Source of the DNA: Pachyseris speciosa
Taxonomy: Eukaryota; Cnidaria; Anthozoa; Scleractinia; Pachyseridae
Assembly: GCA_016490735.1 (NCBI GenBank)
Contig: JAEMWC010000955.1
Location: forward strand, 266,934 to 330,933
Length of the DNA: 64,000 bases
Reading direction: 5' to 3'
Shown here: piece after piece, positions 22,956 through 63,081 of the stretch
Numbering within the stretch: the first letter of the stretch is position 1
Layout of the letters: each line of letters starts with the position of its first letter
The notes under the pieces: model-generated
Seen by the model: the letters and a program-made list of their open reading frames with translations, nothing else
Database searches by the model: none
What the model was told of the DNA's origin: nothing
Position numbers and translations under genes: made by a program

Positions 22956-23246
22956 TTCCCTATCAGGCACCTAACAACTTCAATGTGACTGCAGAAACCT
23001 CTACCAGTGTCATTGTCTCTTTGCAACCACCATCAAAAAGGAAAATCACAGGATATAAGGTCTTTTACAGAAAGCAAGGCTCTCAAAGCTTTTCAACCAA
23101 TCTGATCATTTACAGTTCAGCAGTTACTGAGACTACTGTGACTAAGCTTCTTAAGTACACAGAATATGAATTTTAAGTACAGACCTTCAACGATTTTGGA
23201 GATGGACCGAAGAGCATGCATAAGGTGGTGAGGACAAAGGAAGATG
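22956..23246 (+). pseudogene. fibronectin type III exon with in-frame stop
   Basis: A 291-nt exon, acceptor TTTTTTGTTGCAG and donor GATG|GTAAGA, phase 1 at both ends. It encodes one FN3 module: the start VPYQAPNNFNVTAETSTSVI, strand C with ITGYKVFYRK, and the tyrosine-corner region LLKYTEYEF. The next codon is TAA (23174-23176), after which the reading frame continues sensibly (VQTFNDFGDGPKSM), so a single CAA-to-TAA change is the likely cause. FN3 domains mediate extracellular adhesion. It belongs with the exon at 27984 and probably with the downstream REJ gene. Because it is 1-1 symmetric it could be skipped without frame loss. A sequencing error or a null allele are alternatives. Confidence 0.8.
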
Positions 23247-25640: not shown

Positions 25641-25644
25641 CTAC

Positions 25645-25802: not shown

Positions 25803-25843
<41 letters not shown>

Positions 25844-27983: not shown

Positions 27984-28288
27984 TTCCTTCAAAAGCTCCT
28001 CGAAACCTTACAGCGACTGCAAAAACTTCTACCAGCATTTTTACATCTTGGGAGTTGCCAGCTATAGACTCTAGGAATGGAGAGGTCAAAGGTTTTAAAT
28101 TGTTCTATAAACGGAAGGGTTCAGCTGCCAACATGACAACCACTTTGTTGTTTGAGAGTGCTGAAAGTCGCCAGAAACTGTTTCTGGGCTGGAGAAACTT
28201 ACAGAATATGAATTTGAAGTCCTGGCGTTTACTTCTATTGGCAATGGGCCAAGGACTTCTGTAGTCATTGCAAGAACAAAAGAAGATG
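27984..28288 (+). pseudogene. second fibronectin type III exon, frameshifted
   Basis: Acceptor TTTCATACAG and donor GATG|GTGAGA, both as in the exon at 22956. The length is 305 nt, one short of a multiple of three. It begins VPSKAPRNLTATAKTSTSIF and runs to about 28170; the remaining domain (GLEKLTEYEFEVLAFTSIGN) continues in another frame, so a single-base deletion near 28165-28175 is likely. The two FN3 modules are close paralogues of tandem-domain type. As with its neighbour, its 1-1 symmetry would let splicing skip it. Confidence 0.8.
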
Positions 28289-35020: not shown

Positions 35021-35023
35021 TAT

Positions 35024-35718: not shown

Positions 35719-35719
35719 T

Positions 35720-36755: not shown

Positions 36756-36757
36756 AA

Positions 36758-37142
36758 GACATTTAACATTAGATTTAACCCGGGATTAATGAATGTATGG
36801 TATAGCCAGCAGAGTTTCAAGAACCCACAAACATGTGACTCACCTTGCATCAAGAAGTATCAGAGAAAAGCACCCTTAAAAAGACATTTAACATTACATG
36901 ATGATTTAACCCGGGATTAATGAATGTGTGGTATGGCCAGCAGGATTCAAGTACCCACAAACATGTGACTCACCTTGCATCAAAAAGTAATAGAGAAAAG
37001 CAGCCTTAAAAAGACATTTAACATTCCATGATGATTTAATCCAGGATTAATGACTGTATCGTATAGTCAGCAGGATTCAAGTACCCACAAACATGTGATT
37101 CCCCTTGCATCAAGAAGTACCAGAGAAAAGCAGCCTTTAAAA
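36758..37142. repeat. tandem triplication, unit about 128 bp
   Basis: Three units start GACATTTAACATT at 36758, 36883 and 37013, each with CCCGGGATTAATGA (or variants), CCCACAAACATGTGA and CACCTTGCATCAA. Non-coding. Confidence 0.85.
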
Positions 37143-38299
37143 CAAAAGACCAGGGAGATAATTATTTTTAATCATTTTATTTGGACATCTTCTTGGCTGA
37201 TGAAAGGACCTGAAATAAAATATAGGCAGCATCAACTATAACTGCTTTGAATGTACTGAATTCAACAGAAGTGTACAGCATCAGTATTGGTGTTAGCTGA
37301 ATACAAAGGAATTCCACCAATTTTGTGACATTCTCGAATACGTTGTTACTATGGCCTCATATTTTGTTGCCTCTATTAAAAACTCAAGTAGTGTCTGAAT
37401 CCTTTTGTCCAATTTTTGCCTTTATTTTGGTGCTTGCAAACTGATAGAAATTGTTGTTTGTGGTTCGTATATATTTATATTTTCATAACCTGTAAAATGT
37501 TGATTGGAAGTTTGTTTCAGTTGAGCAATTTAAGTGAACTCAAGTAGCAAAGGAATGAACCCATGTTGTCGTAGTTAGATTGAAGTTTCCAGCCAAGTAA
37601 CGAGCAATGAGTTTACTCGTCGCACGAGTCAAGTTGGAGTCACGAGTCAGGTTCGAGTAAGGTTCCAAATTTTCTTCTTTTCTTTTTTTCTTATTTATTT
37701 ATTTTTTTTGTTTCTTTTTTTCGATTACACTACTAATGTGCGAGCAGTAACCAGAAATATTAACTTCCCAGTTGGCGAAATTTTTCATTCTCGACCAAAA
37801 GAGCCATTCCCGCTGCGTATTGCCGTTGCTTCACCAAGATGCACGACAACTTTCAATATTAATACATTTTCTACGAATATTAAGGCCTCAAATTTGCACA
37901 TACCTGAAGTACATGTCCCATTTACCCGATATACCGGAAAAACACGCGCGTATGGAAAACCAGGAAACCGGAAAGCCGGAAAGCCGGAAAGCTAGAATCC
38001 GGAATGCCGGAATGCCGGAAAGTGCCGGAAAACCGGATAGAGCTAGTCAGAAAAGGAAATAGAATGGAATTAAATGGAAAACAGTTTTTAGTTTATAATT
38101 TTGTTTTATAAATTAAGGTCGCACTCGCACACCTGCAGCACTCCAGCTCCCGAGATTTTAATTACTCATTTTTCCCACGGCGGCGAAACAATTTAATTTG
38201 ATATTATGGATGCTTGCGGTCTTCACGTGCAAGCTACAGATGGTTGACAGCTGTACTACACCTTTAATTTCAAGGCGTGAGAATGTTTTTTCCAATCGC

Positions 38300-38901
38300 T
38301 AACCTTTTGTACATTATGCTAGCATTTTTTCGAGGCGCCACGCAGCTCCCGGAACAGTTCACAGGATTGGCTGAGAAAACAATAAACAAACAACAGAAAC
38401 AATGGACCCTAGCCCTGAAATAATGGAGCTGCGTGGTAATAAGAACCAATGAAATAAGAGGTTACTGAGAGCTGCGTGGCATCTGATTTTTTCGAGCATT
38501 TTAGTGAGGCAAAAGGATTGAGCATTATTCGAGCATTTTAGTGGCATTTTCCCGGAAATTTCTTTTTCCGAGAAACTAAAAAAGAAAATATCTTTTTGGA
38601 GAAAATGAAGACTAAAACTCAAAATTCATAGATGATTTCGAGGATTATGTTTTTTTGGCTGTATTTATGAACTCGTATACGTTGTTGTTGTTACTTGCAA
38701 GACTTGTACGTTTTTGTAAGTGTGAACAGTTAACACCATGTTAAAAACTTTTAAATTAATTAAAAAACCGTTTCTATAATGAGCATTATCCGAGCATATT
38801 AGTGGCTATTTTTGGGAAGACCGAGCATTTTAGTGGGAAAATTGGAGTATTAAGGTGGAGCATTTTAGTGGGGAAACAAAAGCATAATGTACAAAAGCCT
38901 A
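38300..38901. mobile_element. nested 602-bp element, CCAATCGC duplication
   Basis: TAACCTTTTGTACATTATGC and its near complement at the right end form TIRs, flanked by CCAATCGC on both sides (38292-38299, 38902-38909). CGAGCATTTTAGTGG recurs about five times inside. Non-coding; an 8-bp duplication suggests hAT. Confidence 0.8.
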
Positions 38902-38945
38902 CCAATCGCGAAACATACCTTTCAAACTGTGAAACGTACACTAAG

Positions 38946-39245
38946 CGGATGTTTACATGAGAAAACTCGCACCGAGGCGAGTTTCATACCGGTGTGAGGT
39001 TCATATCGGGGCGACTTTTGCCCCGGCGCGAGTTCACTCCGGGTCCCTCTCGTAACTCTGTATTCGTTTACATGATACCACCGAAAAATGTCATGTCGCA
39101 CCGGCGCGAGTTCACCCCGGTTCCTGCACTGGAGCGATAATTTTCGTTCCGGTGCAAAATCTCGAATACGAATACAGAGCTGCAAGAGGGAACCAGAGTG
39201 AACTCGCGCCGGGGCGAAAGTCGCCCCGGTATCATGTAAACACCC
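38946..39245. mobile_element. nested MITE with ATGTTTACATGA ends
   Basis: GATGTTTACATGA and TCATGTAAACACCC are inverted ends, with ACTAA next to both (38940-38944, 39246-39250). The interior has CCGGCGCGAGTTCAC words on both strands. Confidence 0.65.
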
Positions 39246-39301
39246 ACTAAAACTGAAGCGGTGGGCTTCAAAAAACGAAAGTATGAACAAATACATATGA
39301 G

Positions 39302-39453
39302 TTATTGGCCAAGGGTGAGGTCAAGATGGCGGGATATTAGCCAAGTTCTTTTTTTGCGTGTTTATGGACCGAGATGAAGTCGAGGTCCATAAACACGCAA
39401 AAAAAGAACGAGGCCAATATCCCGCCATCTTGACCGAACAAGCTTGGTCAATA
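39302..39453. repeat. 152-bp perfect-type hairpin
   Basis: TCAAGATGGCGGGATATT pairs with AATATCCCGCCATCTTGA, and TTTTTTTGCGTGTTTATGGA pairs with TCCATAAACACGCAAAAAAA around a 7-9 nt loop. Confidence 0.85.
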
Positions 39454-40483
39454 AAGGATTTATTATATGACTCAAAGGACGCCATCAAGAGACAGTAAAA
39501 TGCGGGACGAACGGGCTATCCCGAGAGGTCAAGAGGGCTCCATCTTGACCTCGTGGGTAGCCAATCACAGCAGGAGAATTGACTCATCTTGACCGCTGCA
39601 AGAGCCAGTCATATAATAAATGTGGTTCACGAAAAATAACAATCATGCCGACCTCTTTCCTGCCATCTCTTGGATTTCATTATGACGAGATCTGAAAGGC
39701 GACGCAAAGACGTTATACCACAAATAAAACGAGCTATAACATTCATTTATAATTTCCTTTTCTTGTCGGGACTTCCTTGTTCAATTATCTAGGAAAAATA
39801 TTCTCACGCCTTGAAAGTAAAGGTGGAGTACAGCTGTCAATCACCTGTAGCTTGCACGTGAAGACCGCAAGCGTCCATAATATCAAATTAAATTGTTTCG
39901 CCGCCGTGGGAAAAAAATGAGTAATTAAAATCTCGGGAGCTGGAGTGCTCCAGGGTGTGCGAGTGCGACTTTTATAAAACAAAATTATAAACTAAAAACT
40001 GTTTTCCATTTAATTCCATTCTATTTCGCTCCAACTTAATTTTCCTTTTATGACTAGCTCTATCCGGTTTTCCGGCACTTTCCGGCATTCCGGTATTCCG
40101 GCATTCCGCATTCTTGGCTTTCCGGCTTTTCGGTTTCCTGGTTTTCCATACGCGCGTGTTTTTCCGGTATATCGGGTAAATGGGACATGTACTTCAGGTA
40201 TGTGCAAATTTGAGGTCTTAATATTCGTAGAAAATGTATTAATATTGAAAGTTGTCGTGCATCTTGGTGAAGCAACGGCAATACGCAGTGGTAATGACTC
40301 TTTTGGTCGAGAATGAAGAATGTCGCCAACTGGGAAGTTAATATTTCTGGTTACTGCTCGCACATCAGTAGTGTAATCGAAAAAAAAAAAACAAAGAAAA
40401 CAAAAAGAAAAAAAATTTGGAACGTGACTCGTGACTCGAACTTGACTCGCGACTCGAACTTGACTCGTACGACGAGTAAACTG

Positions 40484-40735
40484 ACGAGCAATACTGCATT
40501 TTGCTCGACATCTCATACATATTGACCATGGGTGGACATTTGGTAAATCAACCAACACAGAAACATTCCAAATTTTCAGGACTTGGTCAGCAAATTTAAT
40601 AGCCTCCTCTTTTCGTTCCCCTGGTTTGAGTCTATCAGCGCAAATTCGACAAAGAGAGTCGCGCCATTTCGTATGCACTTCCATAGAATCCCCTTCAAAA
40701 CAAAATGAAAACAAAACTGGGTGTTTTAAACACAT
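40484..40735 (-). pseudogene. RAG1-like zinc-binding exon, split by transposon
   Basis: A minus-strand frame of about 70 codons with possible acceptor at about 40697. It contains SLCRICADRLKPGERKEEAI, then VLKIWNVSVLVDLPNVHP and ICMRCRAKC. The order C-x2-C, W, V-HP, C-x2-C matches the central zinc-binding region of RAG1 and the RAG1-like zinc-finger exons known from cnidarian genes. The frame is broken by the element at 37609-40483; on the far side (37599 downward on the minus strand) it stays open for about 20 codons (YLAGNFNLTTTTW). Whether a working copy exists elsewhere is unknown. The host gene was not identified. Confidence 0.5.
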
Positions 40736-41119
40736 AGAAACAGCAATCCTTTTGTCTTACTAAAACAGCTGTTTCAGTAAACTTTAATGCCTAACCTTCA
40801 AAAAAAAAATCAGTTGTCTGCAACGCTGGGATTTGGCATGATGGCACTTCAAGAACACTATAATCAGTCAAAAATTCCGAATAGATACAGAAAATTCGAA
40901 AAATACGATAATCTGAGCTAACTCTCGACTTATTTTGAAATGTGATCCGAAAATGGCGGCTACCTTGATGTTTCCTTATCAAAAGTTCCAGATCAGTATT
41001 TTACGTGTCAGAAAACAAACGATTTCTTACGACCCGCGCGTCTCTTGCAAACCGTCCGCTATGTTCCTCAAGAACAATGGCTTCGTGACGTCACTGATGT
41101 CCTAAAAATAGTGATAATG

Positions 41120-41371
41120 GGGCCCGGTTGTTCAGAAGCTGATTAACTTGTTAGCGTAAACTTTGGTTGCGGTTTATAACTTTTGGATGAAACTTTTTTA
41201 ATTTTGTAACTTTTGGATGAAACTTTCTTTTGCTGCTTTTTGTTTTTTAATATTGATGTCCTCTAATTTAAACTTTTACAGAATATCAGCGTTGAACAAC
41301 ATTTGTGGATAGAGAAATAAACTCCTTGGTTAATTTTGTATTAGGGTTAATCGGCTTTCGAACAACCGGGC
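41120..41371. mobile_element. MITE, 252 bp (GGGCCCGGTTGTTC ends)
   Basis: GGCCCGGTTGTTCAGAAGC at the left and TTTCGAACAACCGGGC at the right are inverted, as are the inner GATTAAC/GTTAATC. Interior has a short direct repeat (AACTTTTGGATGAAACTTT, 41190 and 41207). Non-coding. Confidence 0.7.
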
Positions 41372-43125
41372 GGACTGGATTCTTCCTCATTCAAAGGTGT
41401 TCGTGCCCGTTTCGAGCTTGCAGATGTTGCAGTGCACGCAACTTTGTTTAGAGTGGGGAGATGGAAAGCGCAAGATCATGGAGACATCATTAAAGCCCAA
41501 ATAAGGCACAGTGTCTCAAGTAGTTTTGCAACTGGATGTAGCTTGGGCACGGCTGCCCGTGGATGCTGATCTCACGTTGGAAAAAGAAAAGAAAAGAACT
41601 GGGAGGATGAGGAAGTCTTTTATAAGATTTTTTTCTTCCAGTGCTTGCGCAAGATTTTATTTCGCGGGTAAAAGCCTCTGTGCGGTGTTTTATAACTTAT
41701 TTAATGCACATATATTTATTCGTTTCTTCACTATTTCACTAAAAATTGACGTACAAAATAGATTTCATACTTAAAGACCATTTCTGAAATTTCAATTAAA
41801 ATAGTAAAGGTGCAGTGTCATGCGAATCATCTCGTACTTATTTCAGTCAACTATTTGACAAAACATGTTTTGGTATTTTTCTTATTCGTGCATTGGCTCA
41901 GTACTTGAAAACGATGACCCGACTTTTCCTAGTAGAGGTTCCAAATACATGTTTCATACCAGCTAACACAACAATAAGCTTTTTTACAGACTACTCCTGT
42001 TTTGTTATTTATTTGTGAAGTGTTTGGTATTTCGGTAACTGAAACTGAGCTCTAAACACGACGACCACACAGTTTCCTTTCCGATCTAAGCCCATTTGTA
42101 AACTCTGGGTTCACAAAAATTCAGTCTAGCTAAAGAAATCTTGAAAAAATATCCCGGCTTGAACGTGATTCGATGCAATGACCACCTGCGTTCATAATTG
42201 CAGTAGTCTTTCACACCTTTTAAGAAACTTTCACCTTCAGTGCAGTACGTTCATCTTCTTCAATTAGAGCTTCCATGTGCATTGATTAAATCAACAGTGG
42301 TGAAGTCGCGGTTACTAGTCATTGTTTCACGACACAAATCTGTGAATTATCTTTCCTTTATTACACATGGAGAATCCTACACGAGAAAGGGAAGATATTA
42401 ATTTTATTTTGGAGTGGTTAAAACAATATTTTACTGCCTGTTTTTTTTTTCCTAAAATATTGTTTTTACCATTGGAAAATAGAACTGATTTATATATTCG
42501 CCCCACCATGTACATCTTTTCATTATACAGTCAACTCTCTCGTAAGCGGTCACCCTAGGGAATTGGAAAAAGTGTCCGTTAGTAGAGCTCTCCACTTAAG
42601 AGAATTTTCCCAAAAGCAGGGTGAATGTCCGCTTACGGGAACAAAACCTTCATAACAGGTAAACATGTCCACAGAGGAGATAGGTGCCGCCTGGAAATTC
42701 CTAGCCTGCGTAGCAAGCGTTTTCATAAGGTTTCCGAGTATAGAAAGACCGAGTAAAGGGATTTTCGATGTTTTGGCGTCGCCAAAAATGGGGCGCGGCC
42801 AAAACATCTGACAGTGTCCGCTAACGGACACGCTCTACATACAGACTCTTTATTCGTCAGCGATAGTTTTTTCGTCAGCTTCAGAGAACTTCAGGAATCT
42901 GTCAATCACCATTTTTCACTGACTACACAAACAACCCTGAAAAAGCGGGAAATGACGTCATCAATATCCTCACTTGTAAGGAGTAGGAAACTATGCCCCT
43001 AAAGTCCCAGATGTAGTTTTGTATGAATTTTACGAGCAGTATATTTTTGGATTAAAACACTTGTGTCTAGTTACAAAAAAAAACAAGTTGCCCACTTTCT
43101 TGCATAAAATGCAATTTAACTCACC
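41372..43125. other. intronic/non-coding
   Basis: Contains a possible pogo-like MITE at about 42528-42840 (CAGTCAACTCTCTCGTAAGC at the left, GTCCGCTAACGGACACGCTC at the right). Otherwise no exon was recognised. Confidence 0.4.
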
Positions 43126-43221
43126 AAACTATTTTTACTGAGTGCGTGCTCCGAAATGTATACCTAACCCTAACGCTGACCCCAACCGTAATCCTTTTTT
43201 TTTTTTTTTCATTCTTTTCAG

Positions 43222-43263
43222 CAACTACCATTGACAAACCGTCGGAAGCACCGATTATTTCAA
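43222..43263 (+). CDS. microexon A1 (42 nt, phase 1-1)
   Basis: Acceptor TTCATTCTTTTCAG and donor CAA|GTCGGT. With a G from the preceding exon it encodes TTIDKPSEAPIIS after an Ala, a Ser/Thr/Pro-rich 14-residue module. Phase 1 at both ends matches the FN3 exons upstream and the REJ exon downstream, so it can be inserted or skipped without frameshift. Expression evidence is lacking; identification rests on splice signals, phase and conservation of the coding sequence in eight copies. The donor is weaker than consensus. Confidence 0.6.
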
Positions 43264-43760
43264 GTCGGTGTACACTGTCTGCATATTTCTTTTTAAGATG
43301 AAAAATTATAAAGTTTATAAACAACCAGCAGCACAAAATAAAAGGAGATACAATGATAAGGCAAAGCCAGGGGCTAAAATGGCAAAGGTCAATCGTGCGA
43401 GAGTTACAAACCAACATGTGCAAAAAGGGTTGAAGTCAAACAAACAAATATCATAAATAGACACAATAGGCGAATTATACAGAAATAAGTAAACAAATAA
43501 GTGGAATTAATATAAAACAAGCTATCAACGTATATACAGTAGTTTGAGGTAGACATAGGTGGGAAAATAGATGAAGATTTTCTATTGTTTAGATTAGTAA
43601 ATAGAAGTATAAGATCGAGAGATGGAAGGGCGGTGTTTTATTAATAGAGAGATTGGAGAAAAGAAAGAATACGTTACAGCGTTAAAAACTTCATGCAATA
43701 CATCGCGTTTCAAATATTTCACTGAAATCACTTTTTAACACTCTCTTTTATACTTTTCAG

Positions 43761-43802
43761 CAGCTGCCACCGACAAACTATCAGTATCACCGACTGTTTC
43801 AG
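43761..43802 (+). CDS. microexon B1 (42 nt, phase 1-1)
   Basis: Acceptor TTTTATACTTTTCAG, donor CAG|GTCTGT. Encodes AATDKLSVSPTVS after an Ala. Same length, phase and layout as type A, so the two are paralogous: both share DKLS or DKPS and a P followed by a hydrophobic pair and S. Confidence 0.6.
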
Positions 43803-44367
43803 GTCTGTATGTAGTGTCGAAAAACACAACATGCTAAAGTTTGCAGAATATCACAGCCCATAGTTGCTGTGTTAAGCCTCTCTTTTTCCTCGTTTGATGA
43901 TCTAAGGAACGCTTTGCATAATCAGTTATTTCCTTTTTTTGTTACTTTTTCGTAAGGTGTAACAGACAGCGCATTGACGTCAACCATATTTGAGCCAAGT
44001 TTGTCCAACAGCCAACTTCAATCTTCAGCGTTATTACCAGGGAAATGTTCGTGCATATCCAGTTCAATATTCAAAACAATATGATCGCTAAAATTAATCA
44101 GTGTTTCAATATGCAGAGAGAACTGTTGTTTTGTAATGCTAAGTGTTGCGTGACATTGAAATTTGTTCAGTCAAATACTATTTTGAAGTAATAGATCAAA
44201 AGTCTGATCTCCCGACAATAAGTGGTACTATGACTACCTTAATGAAAAAAAATTGATGTCACGTGATCGGTACTTTTGACAACAAATAACAAAAGCGATG
44301 GCTAAGCTTAGCTTAAACATGGGTGGAATGGAGGGGGAGGGGGGTTGGGAGAATGAATGTTTGTTTT

Positions 44368-44494
44368 GCCCTTAGGGTTAAGGTTCTGAGGCTTGGAGTA
44401 AGGCTAGATTGATGGGTTAGGGTTAAGTTAGGTTAGGTTTGGGGTTAGGTTTAGGTTGGGGTTGGGGTTAGAGTTGGGGTTAGGGACAAAATAT
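44368..44494 (+). repeat. telomere-like degenerate TTAGGG tract
   Basis: Variants of GGGTTAGGGTTAAG, GGTTAGGTTT and GGGGTTGGGGTTAG over about 125 bp. Present in all four units (also about 46665-46782, 48962-49076, 51270-51383), with copy-specific single-base length changes in G runs. Confidence 0.75.
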
Positions 44495-44523
44495 TCAGTG
44501 TCTTTCCTTCCATGTTGCACTTT

Positions 44524-45429
44524 GCTACAATAGTTAGCGCTTTGCGCACGAACTAGCTCCTGTCATTCGAAATATTTATAACCAGTCGCTTAAGGAGGGA
44601 TACATCCCATCACTTCTAAAATCTTCCATCGTCACCCCAATCCCGAAGGTCACCCCACCAAAAGAAAAAAAGAGCGATCTCCGCGCCATATCACTCACGT
44701 GCACACTGGCAAAAGTCATGGAGAGATTCACGTGCATAAGCTACTGCAACAGTTACATGGAAAAATCGACCCGCGACAGTTTGCGCGTAGAGGCCACTCA
44801 AAAACAGATGCTCTTCTATTCATGTTACAATCCATTTACGAGGCAGTAGACTTTGGTGATCTAGGAGCCCGGATCTTCTTCGCTGACTTTTCGAAAGGCT
44901 TTGATCTAATTGACCATAAAATCTTAATGACTGAGATGCAAAAACTAGAGGTTAAACCCGCGCTCATCAGTTGGATTTCTGCGTTCCTAACAGATAGACA
45001 GCAAGCTGTAAGAATAAGTACAACCTTATCACATTGGAAATTCTTCAAGGGAGGTGTGCCTCAGGGAACTAAACTAGGAGTGATACTTTTCACAATAATG
45101 ACAAACAGTCTTTTAGCTGATTGGCACCTGAGAGTCAAGATTGTGGATGAGACGTCTGCCATAAAAATACTACCCAGGAACTCTATCAGTCTGCTCAATT
45201 CGACCCTATCTGACATTCACAATTTTTCTATGGATCACAACATGAGACTAAACCCTATTAAATGTAAAGAGATGTTAATTAAGTTTATGTTAAATCCTAA
45301 CTTTATTCTCAGACCATTAATTGTAGGCAACAACGCTATAGAACGTGTATCGACTTACGAGATGCTAGGAGTACTTATCGATAGCGACCTTAAGTGGAAT
45401 AGTCATATTGACTACATGTTAATTAACTA
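44524..45429 (+). pseudogene. LINE reverse-transcriptase fragment, copy 1
   Basis: Begins in one frame with APVIRNIYNQSLKEGYIPSL and IVTPIPKV, shifts frame near 44710-44750, then runs open for 240 codons: FARRGHSKTDALL, FFADFSKGFDLIDHKIL (RT motif A with D), GGVPQGTKLGVILF (motif B), and KIVDETSA where YxDD is expected (motif C), then a NPIKCKEM segment and YEMLGVLIDSDLKWNSHIDY. The second catalytic Asp of motif C is Glu. The 3' end is lost at the unit junction. Related to CR1/L2/jockey-type RTs; clade not settled. Inactive. Confidence 0.85.
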
Positions 45430-45521
45430 CCAAAGTATTTTTACTGAAATGTATGCTCTGAAATGTATACCTAACCCTAACGCTGACCCCAACCCTAATT
45501 CTTTCTTCTTTTTTTTTTCAG

Positions 45522-45563
45522 CAACTGCCATTGATAAACTATCGGAAGCACCGATTATTTCAA
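45522..45563 (+). CDS. microexon A2
   Basis: Acceptor TTTTTTTTTTCAG, donor CAA|GTCAGT. Encodes TAIDKLSEAPIIS after an Ala. Differs from A1 by four or so bases, all leaving an open frame. The upstream polypyrimidine tract is preceded by CCTAACCCTAACGC. Confidence 0.6.
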
Positions 45564-46059
45564 GTCAGTGTCCACTGTCTACATAATTTTTTTAAGATGA
45601 AAAATTATAAAGTTTACTAACAACCAGCAGCACAAAACAGAAGGAGATACAATGATAAGCCAAAGCCAGGGGCTAAAATGGCAAAGGTCAATGGTGCGAG
45701 AGTTACAAACCAACATGTGCAAAAAGGGTTGAAGTCAAACAAACAAATATTATAAATAGACACAAGAGGCGAATTATACAGAAATAAGTAAACAAATAAG
45801 TGGAATTAATATAAAACAAGCTATCAACGTATATACAGTAGGTTGAGGTAGACATAGGTGGGAAAATAAATGAAGATTTTCTATTGTTTAGATTAGTAAA
45901 TAGAAGTATAAGATCAAGAGATGGAAGGGCGGTGTTTTATTAATAGAGAGATTGGAGAAAAGAAAGAATACGTTACAGCGTTAAAAACTTCATGCAATAC
46001 ATCACGTTTCAAATATTTCACTGAAATCACTTTTTAACACTCTCTTTTATACTTTTCAG

Positions 46060-46101
46060 CAACTGCCACCGACAAACTATCAGTATCACCGACTGTTTCA
46101 G
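46060..46101 (+). CDS. microexon B2
   Basis: Encodes TATDKLSVSPTVS after an Ala; acceptor and donor as in B1. Differs from B1 by one base (GCT to ACT, Ala to Thr). Confidence 0.6.
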
Positions 46102-46818
46102 GTCTGTATGTAGTGTCGAAAAACACAACATGCTAAAGTTTGCAAGAATATCACAGCCCATAGTTGCTGTGTTAAGCCTCTCTTTTTCCTCGTTTGATGA
46201 TCTAAGGAACGCTTTGCATAATCAGTTATTTCCTTTTTTTGTTACTTTTTCGTAAGGTGTAACAGACAGCGCATTGACGTCAACCATATTTGAGCCAAGT
46301 TCGTCGAACAGCCAATTTCAATCTTCAGCGTCATTACCAGGGAAAAGTTCGTGCATATCCAGTTCAATATTCAAAACAATATGATCGCTAAAATTAATCA
46401 GTGTTTCAATATGCAGAGAGAACTGTTGTTTTGTATTGCTAAGTGTTGCGTGACATTGAAATTTGTTCAGTGAAATACTATTTTGAAGTAGAGATCAAAA
46501 GTCTGATCTCCCGACAATAAGTGGTACTATGACTACCTTAATGAAAAAAAATTGATGTCACGTGATCGGTACTTTTGACAACAAATAACAAAAGCGATGG
46601 CTAAGCTTAGCTTAAACATGGGTGGAATGGAGGGGGAGGGGGTTGGGAGAATGAATGTTTGTTTTGCCCTTAGGGTTAAGGTTCTGAGGCTTGGGGTAAG
46701 GCTAGATTGATGGGTTAGGGTTAAGTTAGGTTAGGTTTGGGTTAGGTTTAGGTTGGGGTTGGGGTTAGAGTTGGGTTAGGGACAAAATATTCAGTGTCTT
46801 TCCTTCCATGTTGCACTT

Positions 46819-47724
46819 TGCTACAATAGTTAGCGCTTTGCGCACGAACTAGCTCCTGTCATTCGAAATATTTATAACCAGTCGCTTAAGGAGGGATACA
46901 TCCCATCACTTCTAAAATCTTCCATCGTCACCCCAATCCCGAAGGTCACCCCACCAAAAGAAAAAAAGAGCGATCTCCGCGCCATATCACTCACGTGCAC
47001 ACTGGCAAAAGTCATGGAGAGATTCACGTGCATAAGCTACTGCAACAGTTACATGGAAAAATCGACCCGCGACAGTTTGCGCGTAGAGGCCACTCAAAAA
47101 CAGATGCTCTTCTATTCATGTTACAATCCATTTACGAGGCAGTAGACTTTGGTGATCTAGGAGCCCGGATCTTCTTCGCTGACTTTTCGAAAGGCTTTGA
47201 TCTAATTGACCATAAAATCTTAATGACTGAGATGCAAAAACTAGAGGTTAAACCCGCGCTCATCAGTTGGATTTCTGCGTTCCTAACAGATAGACAGCAA
47301 GCTGTAAGAATAGGTACAACCTTATCACATTGGAAATTCTTCAAGGGAGGTGTGCCTCAGGGAACTAAACTAGGAGTGATACTTTTCACAATAATGACAA
47401 ACAGTCTTTTAGCTGATTGGCACCTGAGAGTCAAGATTGTGGATGAGACGTCTGCCATAAAAATACTACCCAGGAACTCTATCAGTCTGCTCAATTCGAC
47501 CCTATCTGACATTCACAATTTTTCTATGGATCACAACATGAGACTAAACCCTATTAAATGTAAAGAGATGTTAATTAAGTTTATGTTAAATCCTAACTTT
47601 ATTCTCAGACCATTAATTGTAGGCAACAACGCTATAGAACGTGTATCGACTTACGAGATGCTAGGAGTACTTATCGATAGCGACCTTAAGTGGAATAGTC
47701 ATATTGACTACATGTTAATTAACT
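46819..47724 (+). pseudogene. LINE reverse-transcriptase fragment, copy 2
   Basis: Same structure, frameshift, VDETS substitution and 3' truncation as copy 1, with scattered single changes (for example AGTACA to GGTACA near 47310). Shared defects show the LINE was already dead before amplification. Confidence 0.85.
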
Positions 47725-47813
47725 ACCAAAGTATTTTTACTGAAATGTATGCTCTGAAATGTATACCTAACCCTAACGCTGACCCCAACCCTAATTCTTT
47801 TTTTTTTTTTCAG

Positions 47814-47855
47814 CAACTGCCATTGATAAACTATCGGAAGCACCGATTATTTCAA
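47814..47855 (+). CDS. microexon A3
   Basis: Identical to A2 in coding sequence and donor; the polypyrimidine tract length differs. Confidence 0.6.
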
Positions 47856-48351
47856 GTCAGTGTCCACTGTCTACATAATTTTTTTAAGATGAAAGTTTAT
47901 AAAGTTTACTAACAACCAGCAGCACAAAACAGAAGGAGATACAATGATAAGCCAAAGCCAGGGGCTAAAATGGCAAAGGTCAATGGTGCGAGAGTTACAA
48001 ACCAACATGTGCAAAAAGGGTTGAAGTCAAACAAACAAATATTATAAATAGACACAAGAGGCGAATTATACAGAAATAAGTAAACAAATAAGTGGAATTA
48101 ATATAAAACAAGCTATCAACGTATATACAGTAGGTTGAGGTAGACATAGGTGGGAAAATAAATGAAGATTTTCTATTGTTTAGATTAGTAAATAGAAGTA
48201 TAGGATCAAGAGATGGAAGGGCGGTGTTTTATTAATAGAGAGATTGGAGAAAAGAAAGAATACGTTACAGCGTTAAAAACTTCATGCAATACATCACGTT
48301 TCAAATATTTCACTGAAATCACTTTTTAACACTCTCTTTTATACTTTTCAG

Positions 48352-48393
48352 CAACTGCCACCGACAAACTATCAGTATCACCGACTGTTTCAG
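48352..48393 (+). CDS. microexon B3
   Basis: Identical to B2 in coding sequence, acceptor and donor. Confidence 0.6.
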
Positions 48394-48609
48394 GTCTGTA
48401 TGTAGTGTCGAAAAACACAACATGCTAAAGTTTGCAAGAATATCACAGCCCGTAGTTGCTGTGTTAAGCCTCTCTTTTTCCTCGTTTGATGATCTAAGGA
48501 ACGCTTTGCATAATCAGTTATTTCCTTTTTTTGTTACTTTTTCGTAAGGTGTAACAGACAGCGCATTGACGTCAACCATATTTGAGCCAAGTTCGTCGAA
48601 CAGCCAATT

Positions 48610-48810
48610 TCAATCTTCAGCGTCATTACCAGGGAAAAGTTCGTGCATATCCAGTTCAATATTCAAAACAATATGATCGCTAAAATTAATCAGTGTTTCA
48701 ATATGCAGAGAGAACTGTTGTTTTGTATTGCTAAGTGTTGCGTGACATTGAAATTTGTTCAGTGAAATACTATTTTGAAGTAGAGGATCAAAAGTCTGAT
48801 CTCCCGACAA
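48610..48810 (-). other. unrecognised antisense ORF in repeat unit
   Basis: A 66-codon frame (SLNKFQCHATLSNTKQQFSL, DHIVLNIELDMHELFPGNDA) recurs in units 3 and 4 (50920-51120) and in broken form in units 1 and 2. Read-through past the stop gives more protein-like sequence (LFDELGSNMVDVNALSVTPY), so it may be a fragment of another mobile-element protein on the minus strand. No family was identified. Confidence 0.3.
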
Positions 48811-49111
48811 TAAGTGGTACTATGACTACCTTAATGAAAAAAAATTGATGTCACGTGATCGGTACTTTTGACAACAAATAACAAAAGCGATGGCTAAGCT
48901 TAGCTTAAACATGGGTGGAATGGAGGGGGAGGGGGTTGGGAGAATGAATGTTTGTTTTGCCCTTAGGGTTAAGGTTCTGAGGCTTGGAGTAAGGCTAGAT
49001 TGATGGGTTAGGGTTAAGTTAGGTTAGGTTTGGGGTTAGGTTTAGGTTGGGGTTGGGGTTAGAGTTGGGGTTAGGGACAAAATATTCAGTGTCTTTCCTT
49101 CCATGTTGCAC

Positions 49112-50018
49112 TTTGCTACAATAGTTAGCGCTTTGCGCACGAACTAGCTCCTGTCATTCGAAATATTTATAACCAGTCGCTTAAGGAGGGATACATCCCA
49201 TCACTTCTAAAATCTTCCATCGTCACCCCAATCCCGAAGGTCACCCCACCAAAAAAAAAAAGAGCGATCTCCGCGCCATATCACTCACGTGCACACTGGC
49301 AAAAGTCATGGAGAGATTCACGTGCATAAGCTACTGCAACAGTTACATGGAAAAATCGACCCGCGACAGTTTGCGCGTAGAGGCCACTCAAAAACAGATG
49401 CTCTTCTATTCATGTTACAATCCATTTACGAGGCAGTAGACTTTGGTGATCTAGGAGCCCGGATCTTCTTCGCTGACTTTTCGAAAGGCTTTGATCTAAT
49501 TGACCATAAAATCTTAATGACTGAGATGCAAAAACTAGAGGTTAAACCCGCGCTCATCAGTTGGATTTCTGCGTTCCTAACAGATAGACAGCAAGCTGTA
49601 AGAATAGGTACAACCTTATCACATTGGAAATTCTTCAAGGGAGGTGTGCCTCAGGGAACTAAACTAGGAGTGATACTTTTCACAATAATGACAAACAGTC
49701 TTTTAGCTGATTGGCACCTGAGAGTCAAGATTGTGGATGAGACGTCTGCCATAAAAATACTACCCAGGAACTCTATCAGTCTGCTCAATTCGACCCTATC
49801 TGACATTCACAATTTTTCTATGGATCACAACATGAGACTAAACCCTATTAAATGTAAAGAGATGTTAATTAAGTTTATGTTAAATCCTAACTTTATTCTC
49901 AGACCATTAATTGTAGGCAACAACGCTATAGAACGTGTATCGACTTACGAGATGCTAGGAGTACTTATCGATAGCGACCTTAAGTGGAATAGTCATATTG
50001 ACTACATGTTAATTAAAT
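49112..50018 (+). pseudogene. LINE reverse-transcriptase fragment, copy 3
   Basis: As copy 2; one change near 50017 gives KYQ rather than NYQ after the junction. Motif A is intact, motif C is VDETS. Confidence 0.85.
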
Positions 50019-50109
50019 ACCAAAGTATTTTTACTGAAATGTATGCTCTGAAATGTATACCTAACCCTAACGCTGACCCCAACCCTAATTCTTTTTCTTT
50101 TTTTTTCAG

Positions 50110-50151
50110 CAACTGCCATTGATAAACTATCGGAAGCACCGATTATTTCAA
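50110..50151 (+). CDS. microexon A4
   Basis: Identical in coding sequence to A2 and A3. Confidence 0.6.
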
Positions 50152-50661
50152 GTCAGTGTCCACTGTCTACATAATTTTTTTAAGATGAAAGTTTATAAAG
50201 TTTACTAACAACCAGCAGCACAAAACAGAAGGAGATACAATGATAAGCCAAAGCCAGGGGCTAAAATGGCAAAGGTCAATGGTGCGAGAGTTACAAACCA
50301 ACATGTGCAAAAAGGGTTGAAGTCAAACAAACAAATATTATAAATAGACACAAGAGGCGAATTATACAGAAATAAGTAAACAAATAAGTGGAATTAATAT
50401 AAAACAAGCTATCAACGTATATACAGTAGGTTGAGGTAGACATAGGTGGGAAAATAAATGAAGATTTTCTATTGTTTAGATTAGTAAATAGAAGTATAAG
50501 ATCAAGAGATGGAAGGGCGGTGTTTTATTAATAGAGAGATTGGAGAAAAGAAAGAATACGTTACAGCGTTAAAAACTTCATGCAATACATCGCGTTTCAA
50601 ATATTTCACTGAAATCACTGAATTATTAACACTTTTTAACACTCTCTTTTATACTTTTCAG

Positions 50662-50703
50662 CAACTGCCACCGACAAACTATCAGTATCACCGACTGTTT
50701 CAG
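50662..50703 (+). CDS. microexon B4
   Basis: Identical in coding sequence to B2 and B3; the intron just upstream has a short insertion (TGAATTATTAACAC) unique to this unit. Confidence 0.6.
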
Positions 50704-51414
50704 GTCTGTATGTAGTGTCGAAAAACACAACATGCTGAAGTTTGCAAGAATATCACAGCCCGTAGTTGCTGTGTTAAGCCTCTCTTTTTCCTCTTTTGAT
50801 GATCTGGGAAACGCTTTGCATAATCATTTATTTCCTTTTTTTGTTACTTTTTCGTAAGGTGTAACAGACAGCGCATTGACGTCAACCATATTTGAGCCAA
50901 GTTCGTCGAACAGCCAATTTCAATCTTCAGCGTCATTACCAGGGAAAAGTTCGTGCATATCCAGTTCAATATTCAAAACAATATGATCGCTAAAATTAAT
51001 CAGTGTTTCAATATGCAGAGAGAACTGTTGTTTTGTATTGCTAAGTGTTGCGTGACATTGAAATTTGTTCAGTGAAATACTATTTTGAAGTAGAGGATCA
51101 AAAGTCTGATCTCCCGACAATAAGTGGTACTATGACTACCTTAATGAAAAAAAATTGATGTCACGTGATCGGTACTTTTGACAACAAATAACAAAAGCGA
51201 TGGCTAAGCTTAGCTTAAACATGGGTGGAATGGAGGGGAGGGGGTTGGGGAATGAATTTTTGTTTTGCCCTTAGGGTTAAGGTTCTGAGGCTTGGGTAAG
51301 GCTAGATTGATGGGTTAGGGTTAAGTTAGGTTAGGTTTGGGGTTAGGTTTAGGTTGGGGTTGGGTTAGAGTTGGGGTTAGGGTCAAAATATTCAGTGTCT
51401 TTCCTTCCATGTTG

Positions 51415-52283
51415 CACTTTGCTACAATAGTTAGCGCTTTGCGCACGAACTAGCTCCTGTCATTCGAAATATTTATAACCAGTCGCTTAAGGAGGGATAC
51501 ATCCCATCACTTCTAAAATCTTCCATCGTCACCCCAATCCCGAAGGTCACCCCACCAAAGAAAAAAAGAGCGATCTCCGCGCCATATCGCTCACGTGCAC
51601 ACTGGCAAAAGTCATGGAGAGATTCACGTGCATAAGCTACTGCAACAGTTACATGGAAAAATCGACCCGCGACAGTTTGCGCGTAGAGGCCACTCAAAAA
51701 CAGATGCTCTTCTATTCATGTTACAATCCATTTACGAGGCAGTAGACTTTGGTGATCTAGGAGCCCGGATCTTCTTCGCTGACTTTTCGAAAGGCTTTGA
51801 TCTAATTGACCATAAAATCTTAATGACTGAGATGCGAAAACTAGAGGTTAAGCCCGCGCTTAACAGTTGGATTTCTGCGTTCCTAACAGATAGACAGCAA
51901 GCTGTAAGAATAGGTACAACCTTATCAAATTGGAAATTCCTTAAGGAGGTGTGCGTCAAGGAACTAAACTAGGAGTGATACTTTTCACAATAATGACAAA
52001 CAATCTTTTAGCTGATTGGCACCTGAGAGTCAAGATTGTGGATGAGACGTCTGCCATAAAAATACTACCCAGGAACTCTATCAGTCTGCTCAATTCGACC
52101 CTATCTGACATTCACAATTTTTCTATGGATCACAACATGAGACTAAACCCTATTAAATGTAAAGAGATTTAATTAAGTTTATGTTAAATCCTAACTTTAT
52201 TCTCAGACCATTAATTGTAGGCAACAACGCTATAGAACGTGTATCGACTTACGAGATGCTAGGAGTACTTATCGATAGCGACC
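51415..52283 (+). pseudogene. LINE RT fragment, copy 4 (5' part)
   Basis: Fourth copy with extra damage: a frameshift at motif B (near 51948) and a lost base near 52169. It is cut by the piggyBac at 52288 and continues at 55048, where, unlike the other copies, the LINE 3' end is retained. Confidence 0.85.
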
Positions 52284-52287
52284 TTAA

Positions 52288-55043
52288 CCCTCATTCTACC
52301 AGGTGGGGTCCAATGCGATTCTCTGTGATAATAAACATTCACCAAAGCTCGTATGGCGAGACGATTTTTTCCAGATTTCATCAATTTTTCTCGTTGTGTT
52401 ACTTTCTTCCGATGGAAATGTTGCTTTTAAAATCCAGAGGACTATGAAAAATTGCTGCTCGTTTTCCTAATGGGGTCTAAATTGACCCCAGCAATGCTAC
52501 AGGATAGTTCAAGGTTACCAAATGAAGTACTGGACAGTTCAATGTAATATACATAAAGTGCTAACAAGTAAATAGCCTGTTCGATTTAGGATTGCTTTGT
52601 TCAACTTAGACTCCTTTTGTTTCCCTTAAGTAATGGCGGCAAAAGGTAGAATTTTGTATTACAATACAGAGGAAACTCTCCATGCGGTTCTAGAAGTGCA
52701 CTCAGATGAATCTGAACTAGAAATTTTCCGACAACTCCGATACAGAAAGTGACCATTTGTCAGAGCCTTCAGACCACAGTGATTCTGAGTCAGCTCCTAT
52801 ACTACTATATGAAAGGAATGCAACAGACCAGGCTTTCACTCCTTCTGAACCTCCAAATGAGCCTAAAGATGTCGTGGTAGTGTTCGAAATCGTGGCCAGG
52901 CTAGAGGACGAGGGCAGACAGTTAGGGTTGCTAGGGGAGAGGAAGGTATTGCGCAGGATGTGTTTATCGCCAAGAATGGAACCATTTGGCAGATCACTCC
53001 ACCAAATGGAGGTCGACGTCACATGCAAGACACATAAGGACACCTCCAGGAATAACACTTGCTGCTAAATGCAACTCAGTCGAGGAAGCCTTTGGATTTT
53101 TCATCACCCCAACTACGTTGATCTCATTGCTCTAGAAACTAATCGTCAGGCTAGACGCATGGTCAGTCAATGGAATGAAGATAACCCTGAGAATAGAAGA
53201 GATTGGTAGGAAGTTGACTCGACTGAGACTAAGGCCTTTATTAAACTTTTCATTATGCCGAATTGCACAAATAAATCATGAATCTGTGTCCTCGTTATGG
53301 TCAGAGAATAAGGGAGACCAATCATCAGTGCAACCTTGTCCACGAATAGATTTACAAGTATTCACAAGTTTTTAAGGTTTGATAATCGTGCAGCTTGGGA
53401 AGAAAGACACGCTGATGAGAAACTCGCACCATTTAGGGACTTTTGGAATCTGTTCCAAGCACAACTTCCAAAGTTCTACATTCCTGGTCCAGATCTTTGT
53501 GTAGATGAGCAGCTTGTGGCGTTTGGAGGCAGATGTGGTTTTCGCCAGTACATTCCATCTAAGCCAGCTAAATATGGAATTAAAATTCGGTGCTGCCGTG
53601 ATTCACAGACCTGTTATCCATTGAAAGGTGATGTTTACCTGGGAAGGCAACCTGGCCAGCAGAGAGAAGTTCGACAGGGAGCTCGTGTTTTCAAACAGCT
53701 TGTGGAACCATGGGTAGAAGTGGAAGGAATGTCACATCCGACAATTTTTTCACCTCATCCCTCTTGCAGAAGATCTTCTGAAGGATGGCTTGATCTTTGT
53801 GGGCGCAATCCGTTCCAACAAACCACACATCACAGATTCAATGAAGGCTAACAGTACCAGACAGGTTCAGAGTTCCATGTTTGGTTTCAGTGACCAGCTC
53901 ACTTTGGTTACATGTGTAGCAAAGGAGAAGCAGGCTGTCTTGGTGCTGTCAACAATACATCATGATGACCAAGTAGATGGTGACACCCAGAAACCAGAAA
54001 TCATCCTCTACTATAACTCAGCCAAAAGTGGAGTAGATAATCTGGATCACCTGGCAACGATGTACACAAGTAGGAGGAAAGTCAACCGTTGGCCTGTAGC
54101 ACTATTCGGAAATATCGTTGATGTTAGGGCTGTAGCAGCATTTATTGTCTGGTTAGGCAACTTTCCTCAATGGAAAATTTCTGAAGGTAAACGCAGGAGA
54201 CGCCTCTTCCTTTGAGAGCTAGCAAATCAGCTCGTCTTGCCACACATCAGACGCAGAGCACTTACACCTACATTGCAGGCACAAATCAGGAATGCCATGA
54301 AGATGGTTGGAGTTGATCTTCCTCTGCCTGTCCAGCAAGTTCAAGGTGACACAAGTGCGGCAAAGAGAAAGAGATGTCACCTTTGCCCTCGTGGATTCGA
54401 TAAGAAGGTTCGATTGACATGCGATAGGTGCAAGCACCCAGAATGTCCAGCACACAGTGTTCAACAAGTGCTTTACGATGATTGCTTCTAGATCTAAGAA
54501 GTCTCATGATGTTACAGGCACTGTTTGGTTACATTCCATCAGAATGAAAACGAAACATTTTCCTTATATAATATGTAACGTTTATACTATTTTTCATTGT
54601 TCATTGTCATCCTGAATATCAAACAATTTTAATTATTTTATGAATTTTCCAACAGTAATTCGCTGTTTATGTGGGAAAAGTTTATGAATTGGTTCTTAGA
54701 ACTTCTATGCGGCCCTGCGCTATGCATTGTATACCACAGTTGTTTTTCAAATAGTCAATAACCGTAATAAGGGATGGGGTTTGAGTGGACCCCAGCTGGT
54801 AAGATTTGCACAAATCTGTTGAGTTCTCTAAGCATGTTTGTCTAATTGGCACGTAAAACATTCCCTTTAATTTCAAGGTACAATTTTAACGTTTGCATTA
54901 GTAAATGGAAGTATTATTAACGTTAGTTTTTCTAAAAATTATTGAAAATCGTAACTGAGCATGATTGAAAGAAAAAATGGAGTGTATGTTGTGTGGAAAA
55001 AAGTAAAAAAAAAAGTATGTAAAATATGTTGGTAGGATGAGGG
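52288..55043 (+). mobile_element. piggyBac element with TTAA duplication
   Basis: CCCTCATTCTACCA and TGGTAGGATGAGGG are the inverted 14-bp ends; TTAA flanks both (52284-52287, 55044-55047). 2756 bp. It carries a degraded piggyBac transposase in plus orientation and has split LINE copy 4 precisely. Confidence 0.95.
52632..54491 (+). pseudogene. piggyBac transposase, frameshifted
   Basis: Starts at ATGGCGGCAAAAGG (52632) and breaks frame several times (near 52730, 52950, 53170, 53370, 53760, 54210). Visible family blocks are an acidic N-terminus (SDHSDSESAP), IHKFLRFDNRAAW, CVDEQLVAFGGRCGFRQYIP with the first catalytic Asp near 53503, TSDNFFTS near 53740 with the second, NSAKSGVDNLD near 54030 with the third and fourth, and a C-terminal cysteine-rich zinc finger (CHLCPRGFDKKVR, CDRCKHPECPAHS). 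All four catalytic Asp codons survive, but the ORF is not intact, so it is recently inactivated. Confidence 0.9.
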
Positions 55044-55047
55044 TTAA

Positions 55048-55619
55048 GTGGAATAGTCATGTTGACTGCATATATAAAAACGCTTGCAAGAAGCTCTACT
55101 CCCTACGTATTCTACGCCAAGCCGGCGTTGATCAAGGTAGCATGTTAAAGGTCTATATAAGCACTATTAGATCCGTTCTAGAGTACGCCGTGCCTGTGTG
55201 GCAATCCATTCCAGGTTATCTGTCTGACAAAATTGAATCCATACAGAAAAGGGTGCTTAAGATAATTTTCCCCTGTGTTGAAAGTTACCTAGATGCCCTC
55301 GAGTTAGCACGGGTGGAAACTCTTGTGTAAAATGAAGGACTTAAACCACCCTCTTCATCCTCTTCTACCAATACGCTTGGCCGATACCTGTCCTACACCC
55401 TAAGGCACAAATCAGACCAGCTGTACGTTTATAAAAACGTTACTTCCTGTAGAACGAAGCGCACCGAAGACTTTTTCACTTTTAAGTATTTTTAAGAAAT
55501 GTGGTGTATATAATTTTTACTTAATGTACATATAAATGTACATAGTTGATTTTATTAATTTTTCATTGTATTATAACTCGTTAAATCAGTAAGTTACTGC
55601 AAGAGAGTTGAATAAACTG

Positions 55620-55640
<21 letters not shown>
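55048..55640 (+). pseudogene. LINE 3' end, continuation of copy 4
   Basis: Resumes after the TTAA with LKWNSHVDCIYKNACKKLYS, LRQAGVDQGSMLKVYISTIR, SVLEYAVPVWQSIPG and IQKRVLKIIFP, the C-terminal thumb region of LINE RTs, then a stop at about 55328. A short 3' UTR ends in (ATT)n at 55618-55647. It shows what the amplified units lack. Confidence 0.85.
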
Positions 55641-55650
<10 letters not shown>

Positions 55651-55760
55651 GAATTTAGCACAGGGATTTTATCTGGGAAGAAATATCCAGTCAAGTCTCA
55701 TCCCGAGACGTCAGACTTCCAGCACTTTTTTGAGGATATGTGCCGATCCGAGAAGTGCCG

Positions 55761-55762
<2 letters not shown>

Positions 55763-55845
<83 letters not shown>
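55763..55845. repeat. compound (CTT)n-(ATT)n microsatellite
   Basis: About ten CTT triplets followed by about eighteen ATT triplets. The poly-Ser/Tyr/Ile ORFs over it are artefacts. Confidence 0.95.
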
Positions 55846-55849
55846 AGGC

Positions 55850-56822: not shown

Positions 56823-57082
56823 GATCACAGTGTATAGTTAAGCCATCTGAAGGAGAAAGCCTAGACACATTGTTCAACATAACGTGCTCTGGTTGGAATT
56901 CTCCTCAGTCTTCTCCTTTGACATACGAGTTTTGGTACACACTTGTGAATGGCTTACAAGGCAGACTATACAAAGGAAACAAGAGCAGCTTCCGTACAGT
57001 ATTGATTCGTGGTATTTCTGCAATAAAAATCTTAGTTCGTGAAGTAGGAGGAACAGTAAGAGAAAAAGAGTGGAACGTATCG
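56823..57082 (+). CDS. REJ-domain exon (polycystin-1-like gene)
   Basis: A 260-nt exon, acceptor TTCTAAACAG, donor TCG|GTAAGA, phase 1 to phase 0. It encodes QCIVKPSEGESLDTLFNITC, SGWNSPQSSPLTYEFWY, YKGNKSSFRTVLIRG and VREVGGTVREKEWNVS. The block C-x-V-P-G-L-T-F-C-GW followed by PLTYEF is diagnostic of the REJ (receptor for egg jelly) module of polycystin-1 family proteins and sea-urchin sperm receptors. The domain is extracellular. It follows the microexon array in matching phase and is followed by further exons in phase 0, so it anchors the gene on the plus strand. No stop or frameshift is seen. Its N-glycosylation sites NIT and NKS fit an extracellular location. Confidence 0.85.
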
Positions 57083-57447: not shown

Positions 57448-57591
57448 GTTCGTCCCTCCTCGTTAACAACGTGTAAAGAATGGACTGCAGAACTAGAGAG
57501 GTATAACAGGAGTGGAGATTCTGGCAGAGCAATCCTAGCTTCAATAGAAATATCGTTATATTTTGGTGAAAACCTCACTACATGTCAAAAG
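57448..57591 (+). CDS. exon after REJ domain
   Basis: A 144-nt exon (48 codons), acceptor TTTTTGCCTTCAG, donor AAAAG|GTTCGT (weak), phase 0-0. Encodes VRPSSLTTCKEWTAELERYN, then GRAILASIEISLYFGENLTT with C near the end. Presumably the helical region following REJ in polycystin-like proteins. Confidence 0.7.
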
Positions 57592-58411: not shown

Positions 58412-58537
58412 TTAGTTGATTATGTTGCTGATATGACATCCAACCTGAAGGTTGAAAACACGAGCGACATTCTCCCACTGTTACTGGCTTTTGATTTTGT
58501 AGTGAATTTGTTGGAGAAGCCTTCTACCGATAATGTG
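58412..58537 (+). CDS. exon of the REJ gene, pre-membrane region
   Basis: A 126-nt exon (42 codons), acceptor TTATCCTGCAG, donor GTG|GTAAGT (near consensus), phase 0-0. Encodes LVDYVADMTSNLKVENTSDI and LPLLLAFDFVVNLLEKPSTD. The leucine-rich helical pattern is like the part leading into the GAIN/GPS domain of polycystin-1-like and adhesion receptors; this is inference. Confidence 0.75.
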
Positions 58538-62901: not shown

Positions 62902-63081
62902 TTGCGTAATAGTTTGAAGAGACTTGTGTCGCATATTAGTGAAAAGACCAGAACACTAGGACCAGCTCTAGCTAAGAGTGTATCCTTAGTGGAAAAACTC
63001 CTCTCAAGCATTGGTAAAGCCATGAACAGCACTTCAAAAGATATTTATCTTCTCAACGCGGACCCAAAGATTCAGGAAGAG
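62902..63081 (+). CDS. exon of the REJ gene, last in window
   Basis: A 180-nt exon (60 codons), acceptor TTGTTGTTTCAG, donor GAG|GTATTT, phase 0-0. Encodes LRNSLKRLVSHISEKTRTLG, LAKSVSLVEKLLSSIGKAMN and DIYLLNADPKIQEE. The amphipathic helical pattern continues that of 58412-58537. The gene must run on past the right edge, since no stop, PLAT or membrane segment has been reached. Confidence 0.75.

Follow-up and report, generated by a model that had tools for sequence, protein, structure and literature searches.

The scleractinian Pachyseris speciosa (assembly GCA_016490735.1, contig JAEMWC010000955.1) carries, upstream of an exon encoding part of a REJ domain, eight segments of 42 nucleotides (nt) that are each bounded by an AG acceptor and a GT donor. 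They lie in a stretch of 64,000 nt, referred to here as the window, where four tandem blocks of ~2.3 kb, spaced 2292-2310 nt apart, each hold one copy of two related sequences, A and B. The reading favoured here, at a probability of roughly 0.55, is that these are frame-neutral linker exons ahead of the REJ region of a receptor-like gene, multiplied by block duplication through unequal exchange. The evidence comes from one assembly, and all coordinates are window positions (Table 1).

The 42-nt segments and their tandem blocks

All eight AG-42-GT segments of the original prediction were found where it had placed them, each exactly 42 nt long. They represent four distinct sequences, since A2, A3 and A4 are identical, as are B2, B3 and B4, and A1 and B1 differ from these. 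Elsewhere in the window the best ungapped match to A or B, on either strand, reaches at most 26 of 42 positions. The peptide motif ATAxDKLSxxP that had been proposed for the array, read with a G preceding the exon, is present in six of the eight segments, and is replaced by ATTIDKPSEAP in A1 and AAATDKLSVSP in B1. The first residue of each module is set by the last base of the preceding exon, with G giving A and A giving T. In the modules, which had been described as rich in serine, threonine and proline, these residues number 4 of 14 in A and 7 of 14 in B (counted by eye). B1 alone has CAGCAG at its acceptor (43758-43763), and use of the second acceptor would move the exon start to 43764, a possible shift of 3 nt.

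The blocks differ pairwise by 0.23-2.76%, and the changes private to a single block are unevenly distributed. In block 1, 32 of the 33 private changes lie in the 5' half, and in block 4, 18 of 25 lie in the 3' half; block 2 has none and block 3 has one. Private changes at the outer edges of the array are the pattern expected of unequal exchange homogenising the middle copies, and with four blocks and mosaic differences of this type the expectation of a germline-expandable array holds good.

Every block also contains a fragment of a long interspersed nuclear element (LINE), detected by tblastn and as direct repeats. Among the best 120 of 318 relatives of the LINE, identity is 74% for the top-scoring one and reaches 81% at most, and two of them carry the name of the octocoral Paramuricea clavata. 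The three block boundaries fall within the LINE at one identical position, apart from a single base that differs at the third, and a continuation of the LINE follows the last block only. A piggyBac-like element separates block 4 from this continuation, and its empty site continues in the LINE sequence that is also seen at the block junctions. From the LINE junctions, the single continuation and the empty site follows the order of events: the split of A and B, the LINE insertion, the block duplication and the piggyBac insertion. Some LINE relatives extend ~15 residues beyond the block junction (45417-45469 and its copies), to 45463 or 45469 in tblastn, and the sequence preceding exon A may itself be LINE-like.

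A Ser-rich open frame at 46256-46381, with its copies, was considered as a third exon in each block and rejected; it gave no hit in the blind scan described below, and over 100 aligned positions in this region block 1 shows 5 differences from blocks 2-4. Rfam gave no matches at E<=0.1 across 42600-52400, and a tRNA search of the window made no call inside the array.

Table 1. Positions of the 42-nt exons, blocks, inserted elements and neighbouring exons in the window.
Feature	Position	Strand	Description
Exon A1	43222..43263	+	42 nt, TTIDKPSEAPIIS in phase 1; 4 differences from A2-A4
Exon B1	43761..43802	+	42 nt, AATDKLSVSPTVS in phase 1; 1 difference from B2-B4
Exon A2	45522..45563	+	42 nt, TAIDKLSEAPIIS in phase 1
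Exon B2	46060..46101	+	42 nt, TATDKLSVSPTVS in phase 1
Exon A3	47814..47855	+	Same sequence as A2
Exon B3	48352..48393	+	Same sequence as B2
Exon A4	50110..50151	+	Same sequence as A2
Exon B4	50662..50703	+	Same sequence as B2
Block 1	43103..45417	+	A1, B1, LINE fragment; 5' edge approximate
Block 2	45418..47713	+	A2, B2, LINE fragment
Block 3	47714..50007	+	A3, B3, LINE fragment
Block 4	50008..52287	+	A4, B4, LINE fragment; interrupted by piggyBac-like element
LINE reverse-transcriptase fragment, block 1	44538..45417	+	RVT_1, 9.4e-16; copies in every block
piggyBac-like element	52288..55043	+	TTAA on either side (52284-52287, 55044-55047); terminal repeats CCCTCATYCTACC; DDE_Tnp_1_7 transposase split between two frames
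LINE 3' part	55044..55647 (end approximate)	+	Single copy after last block; ends in TTA repeat
FN3 exon 1	22956..23246	+	291 nt, phase 1-1, in-frame TAA stop; Pfam fn3
FN3 exon 2	27984..28288	+	305 nt, frameshifted midway; Pfam fn3 in two frames
REJ exon	56823..57082	+	Open, entry phase 1, exit phase 0; REJ profile 316-413 of 452, E 2.3e-10
Putative downstream exon	57448..57591	+	Phase 0-0, open; no Pfam match
Putative downstream exon	58412..58537	+	Phase 0-0, open; no Pfam match
Putative downstream exon	62902..63081	+	Phase 0-0, open, weaker splice sites; no Pfam match

Similarity of A and B

Identity from copy to copy says nothing on function, because the introns and the LINE are about as similar between blocks as the exons are. 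The comparison of A with B is the informative one. The two are identical at 33 of 42 positions, and their local alignment extends from within the pyrimidine tract as far as donor position +6. The exon alignment scores 50, a value reached by none of 500 shuffles (maximum 22.5). The flanks, aligned without the 16 bases preceding the exon and the 6 following it, score 24.5 upstream and 23.5 downstream; of 500 shuffles, 70 attained the former value and 276 the latter. Within the upstream alignment, the part around CAAA-TATTT-ACTGAAAT may be a remnant of homology.

Flanks diverging at the rate of the exons would be expected to score much higher. In simulations at a pairwise difference of 0.20-0.24, with small indels only (six settings, 300 runs each), mean scores were 71-94 upstream and 164-215 downstream, and scores as low as those observed occurred in 0/300 runs for either flank in every setting. 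At a simulated divergence of 0.30-0.36, no run gave a downstream score as low as that observed. Either the sequence was retained between the splice sites while the introns drifted, or the exon and its borders alone were copied. Sequence that is kept between splice sites but not in introns is the usual mark of real exons, and this comparison suggests that A and B are paralogous exons of long standing, genuine or formerly genuine.

Splice sites

Splice sites were scored with a generic position-weight matrix and ranked among the 3882 AGs and 3688 GTs of the plus strand. The array acceptors are all at or above percentile 99.4, and the donors stand at 86.8 (A1), 95.8 (A2-4) and 97.6 (B1-4). A blind scan for open segments of 27-330 nt that are symmetric in phase 1, with an acceptor score of at least 8 and a donor score of at least 3, returned 15 hits on the plus strand and 2 on the minus strand; the array exons took ranks 1-7 and 11 on the plus strand, and B1 with its second acceptor was rank 13. 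At a score of at least 14.9 and a length of at most 60 nt, there were 7 hits on the plus strand (A2-4 and B1-4, with A1 narrowly under the cut-off) and 1 on the minus strand, whereas 40 dinucleotide shuffles gave 0.70 on average and never more than 3. Without the limit on length, there were 10 and 1 hits, and the 40 shuffles averaged 1.30 with at most 5. The excess over shuffles is not significant by itself, because only A and B are independent and the comparison is really of 2 with 0.70.

The surrounding gene

The array adjoins exons of conventional size, since the FN3 (fibronectin type III), REJ and other exons near it measure 126-305 nt. The REJ exon enters in phase 1 and is compatible with the array, as had been predicted. 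A relative of this exon, P0121, is identical to it at 58 of 95 positions (61%); the REJ open frame alone, used as a query, gave one protein match among 8 candidates, and the source label 'lgn' of the matched protein presumably stands for Logan. For the protein formed by the REJ exon and the exons downstream, no homologue was found at E<=0.001 among 708 candidates, with a query that carried 45 filler letters and was without the last 45 residues. Among solved structures there was no convincing match to this protein, the nearest being two designed proteins (E 0.16 and 0.22). Three plus-strand frames of 57061-64000 contained no Pfam match of any kind, GPS and PLAT included, and the gene may run past the end of the window. 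PKD repeats and membrane spans were not seen in the stretches scanned with Pfam, and membership of the REJ/PKD1 family is only partly supported by the sequence.

On the 5' side, the plus-strand frames of 1-14999 and 18600-28301 yielded nothing but FN3 in Pfam, and no further piece of REJ or FN3 was found in those of 28300-43150 or 52288-56822. The scan recovers FN3 in 18602-28301, and it works at least for domain-sized exons. Outside these plus-strand frames, Pfam coverage comprised one LINE frame in the array (43151-52287), two open frames in 15000-18599 and one open frame on the minus strand. The agreement in phase that had been claimed with the FN3 exons upstream is not supported for working exons, because the first FN3 exon has an in-frame stop (...TEYEF*VQTFNDFGDGP...) and the second is frameshifted; the second piece of the latter, 45 residues long, scores 21.3 bits, under the Pfam cut-off of 25.

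Weighing the explanations

Several observations count against frame-neutral linker exons in a receptor-like gene. Each of the four distinct sequences can be read without a stop in both phase 0 and phase 1, so the phase is not fixed by the 42-nt exons themselves, and use of phase 1 would follow from the entry of the REJ exon and the exit of the FN3 exons; phase 2 has stops in A and A1 and none in B and B1. The differences between A and B are spread 3:3:3 over codon positions in either open phase, and the ratio of synonymous to non-synonymous changes is 3:6 in phase 1 and 3.5:5.5 in phase 0, numbers too few to decide either phase or selection. A1 differs from A2 at 4 of 42 positions, and the flanks at 5 of 65 and 8 of 96, so that no recent constraint is visible. 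At a simulated divergence of 0.30-0.36, 0.3-7.0% of runs brought the upstream flank down to the observed score. Neither FN3 exon is intact, although both lie in otherwise exon-like surroundings and have good splice sites, and for positions 1-315 of the REJ profile there was no Pfam match in the plus-strand frames of 28300-43150 and 52288-56822; because of these two findings, the gene may be dead in its 5' part.

The same findings lend themselves to another, more doubtful explanation, in which A and B were once real exons, the 5' part of the gene has decayed, and the blocks are a passive segmental duplication, dead or rarely transcribed, with no effect on protein. The stop and the frameshift in FN3, the first two-thirds of REJ that were not found in the stretches scanned, the lack of constraint on A1 relative to its flanks, and the transposons inserted in and around the array all fit such a relic. 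Nevertheless, all eight copies keep intact splice sites, and the REJ exon and three putative downstream exons are open, so that a shorter transcript starting 3' of FN3 could use the array. It is unlikely that the segments are not exons at all and that a single intronic sequence, repeated, has their AG and GT borders and open frames by chance. Only two of the sequences are independent, and shuffled windows yield comparable short hits (on average 0.70, at most 3, n=40), but chance leaves unexplained why the detectable similarity of A and B is confined between the splice sites. Least probable of all is a copy number produced by the assembly, through allelic copies placed end to end or misresolved repeats. 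Blocks 2 and 3 differ at just 5 of 2172 sites, a point in favour of such an artefact; however, blocks 1 and 4 carry separate private changes at opposite edges, the LINE junction recurs at the three boundaries, and the LINE continues only after the last block.

Proposed origin of the array

Under the favoured reading of duplicated linker exons, an ancestral short frame-neutral exon, upstream of the REJ region in an animal (probably anthozoan) REJ-type receptor gene, would have been duplicated long ago to give A and B. A LINE would then have inserted into the intron behind B, and a segment of ~2.3 kb, beginning a little upstream of A and ending within the LINE, would have been tandemly duplicated. 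Unequal exchange would have raised the number of copies to four and homogenised the middle ones, with the outer edges left diverged, and a piggyBac-like element would last have entered a TTAA of the final LINE copy. Entry and exit phase agree in each 42-nt exon, so that any number of them could be included with the reading frame intact. If spliced in phase 1, at whatever level of inclusion, each block would add 28 Ser/Thr-rich residues, 14 each from A and B, to a linker before REJ, and four blocks would add up to 112. All blocks would probably be joined with the FN3 and REJ exons in one transcript, and the number of blocks could change through unequal exchange, so that copy number may vary between individuals.

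Other features of the window

Overlapping open frames at 16955-17638 (plus strand) and 17352-18458 (minus strand), one with a SAP domain and one with a THAP match under the Pfam cut-off, possibly belong to a DNA transposon. A peptide-level sequence and a GGAAAGCC-type repeat are shared, in opposite orientation, by 37579-38062 (plus strand) and 40010-40756 (minus strand), ~2 kb apart, which form a large inverted repeat. Short tandem arrays at 28958-29282 and 31216-31500 are composed of 141-nt units in which GTCGAGTCGACAA-like motifs are abundant. Three tRNA-like calls, at 8284-8357 (minus), 8438-8511 (plus) and 25755-25828 (minus), have a four-base anticodon, 'ggta', and are perhaps tRNA-derived repeats.

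Relation to known systems

Neuronal microexons are cassette exons that keep the frame, mostly occur singly and are very short, about 3-27 nt (at most ~27-30). The array exons resemble them in being very short and frame-neutral, but at 42 nt are over their length limit and are tandem. Schistosome micro-exon genes have exons whose length, 6-81 bp, is in most cases divisible by three, with long introns in between, and encode secreted proteins with an N-terminal signal peptide. An exon length of 42 nt falls within that range and is a multiple of three; unlike these genes, which consist largely of micro-exons, the array adjoins conventional FN3 and REJ exons.

In its anatomy the array resembles a known kind, that of the human LPA KIV-2 repeat, in which the blocks measure 5.6 kb, their two exons 160 and 182 bp, and an allele has 1 to >40 copies (PMC6314250). 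Both are near-identical tandem blocks within one gene, presumably so in the case of the array, with two exons in each block set within intron (here ~2.3 kb with 42 and 42 nt). The KIV-2 exons encode a kringle domain and their copy number has been measured, in contrast to the short linker exons of the array, which are present in four copies in one assembly.

The REJ context, a REJ-region exon with a conserved relative, recalls sea urchin SpREJ, whose REJ domain is of ~600 residues (PMC1934368), a coral REJ skeletal protein (PMC4890752) and Ciona s-Themis (PMC7018956). The REJ module of polycystin-1 is described as containing FN3-like domains (PMC3677617). Unlike REJ/polycystin-1 receptors, the gene shows no more of the REJ profile than positions 316-413 of 452 in the stretches scanned. 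The excerpted literature on those receptors contains no mention of a tandem-exon array.

No literature joining receptor for egg jelly, fibronectin type III and coral was found, and a comparable array was absent from the titles found on tandem exon duplication, microexons and cnidarian, coral or Nematostella splicing, among the matches listed. Sequence collections of viruses and prokaryotes were searched with patterns made from the exons, and their negatives say little on animals. A 40-base pattern had no matches in viral contigs and a 35-base pattern had none in genome contigs; a 17-base pattern matched 28 stretches, but is so loose that chance matches are expected. The REJ exon gave 6 pattern matches in viral contigs, none of them a relative.

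Biological meaning

The most far-reaching reading, which takes up the original prediction of a splice-tunable stalk in an adhesion or gamete-recognition type receptor, is of a living REJ-type surface receptor in which stalk length is set both by the number of blocks in the germline and by splicing of the 42-nt exons in each cell. We consider this improbable; if true, individuals would differ in their sets of stalk lengths, in a class of molecules that includes gamete and self-recognition receptors. If the exons are unused, the array would be a tidy case of exon multiplication by unequal exchange in a gene segment under decay, and would caution that 'exon arrays' of nearly identical copies hold no conservation signal of their own. 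If they are used, the linker of this receptor could be extended in steps of 14 residues, at no cost to the frame, by block number and by splicing, and this would occur in a class of receptors linked to fertilisation and self-recognition in other animals.

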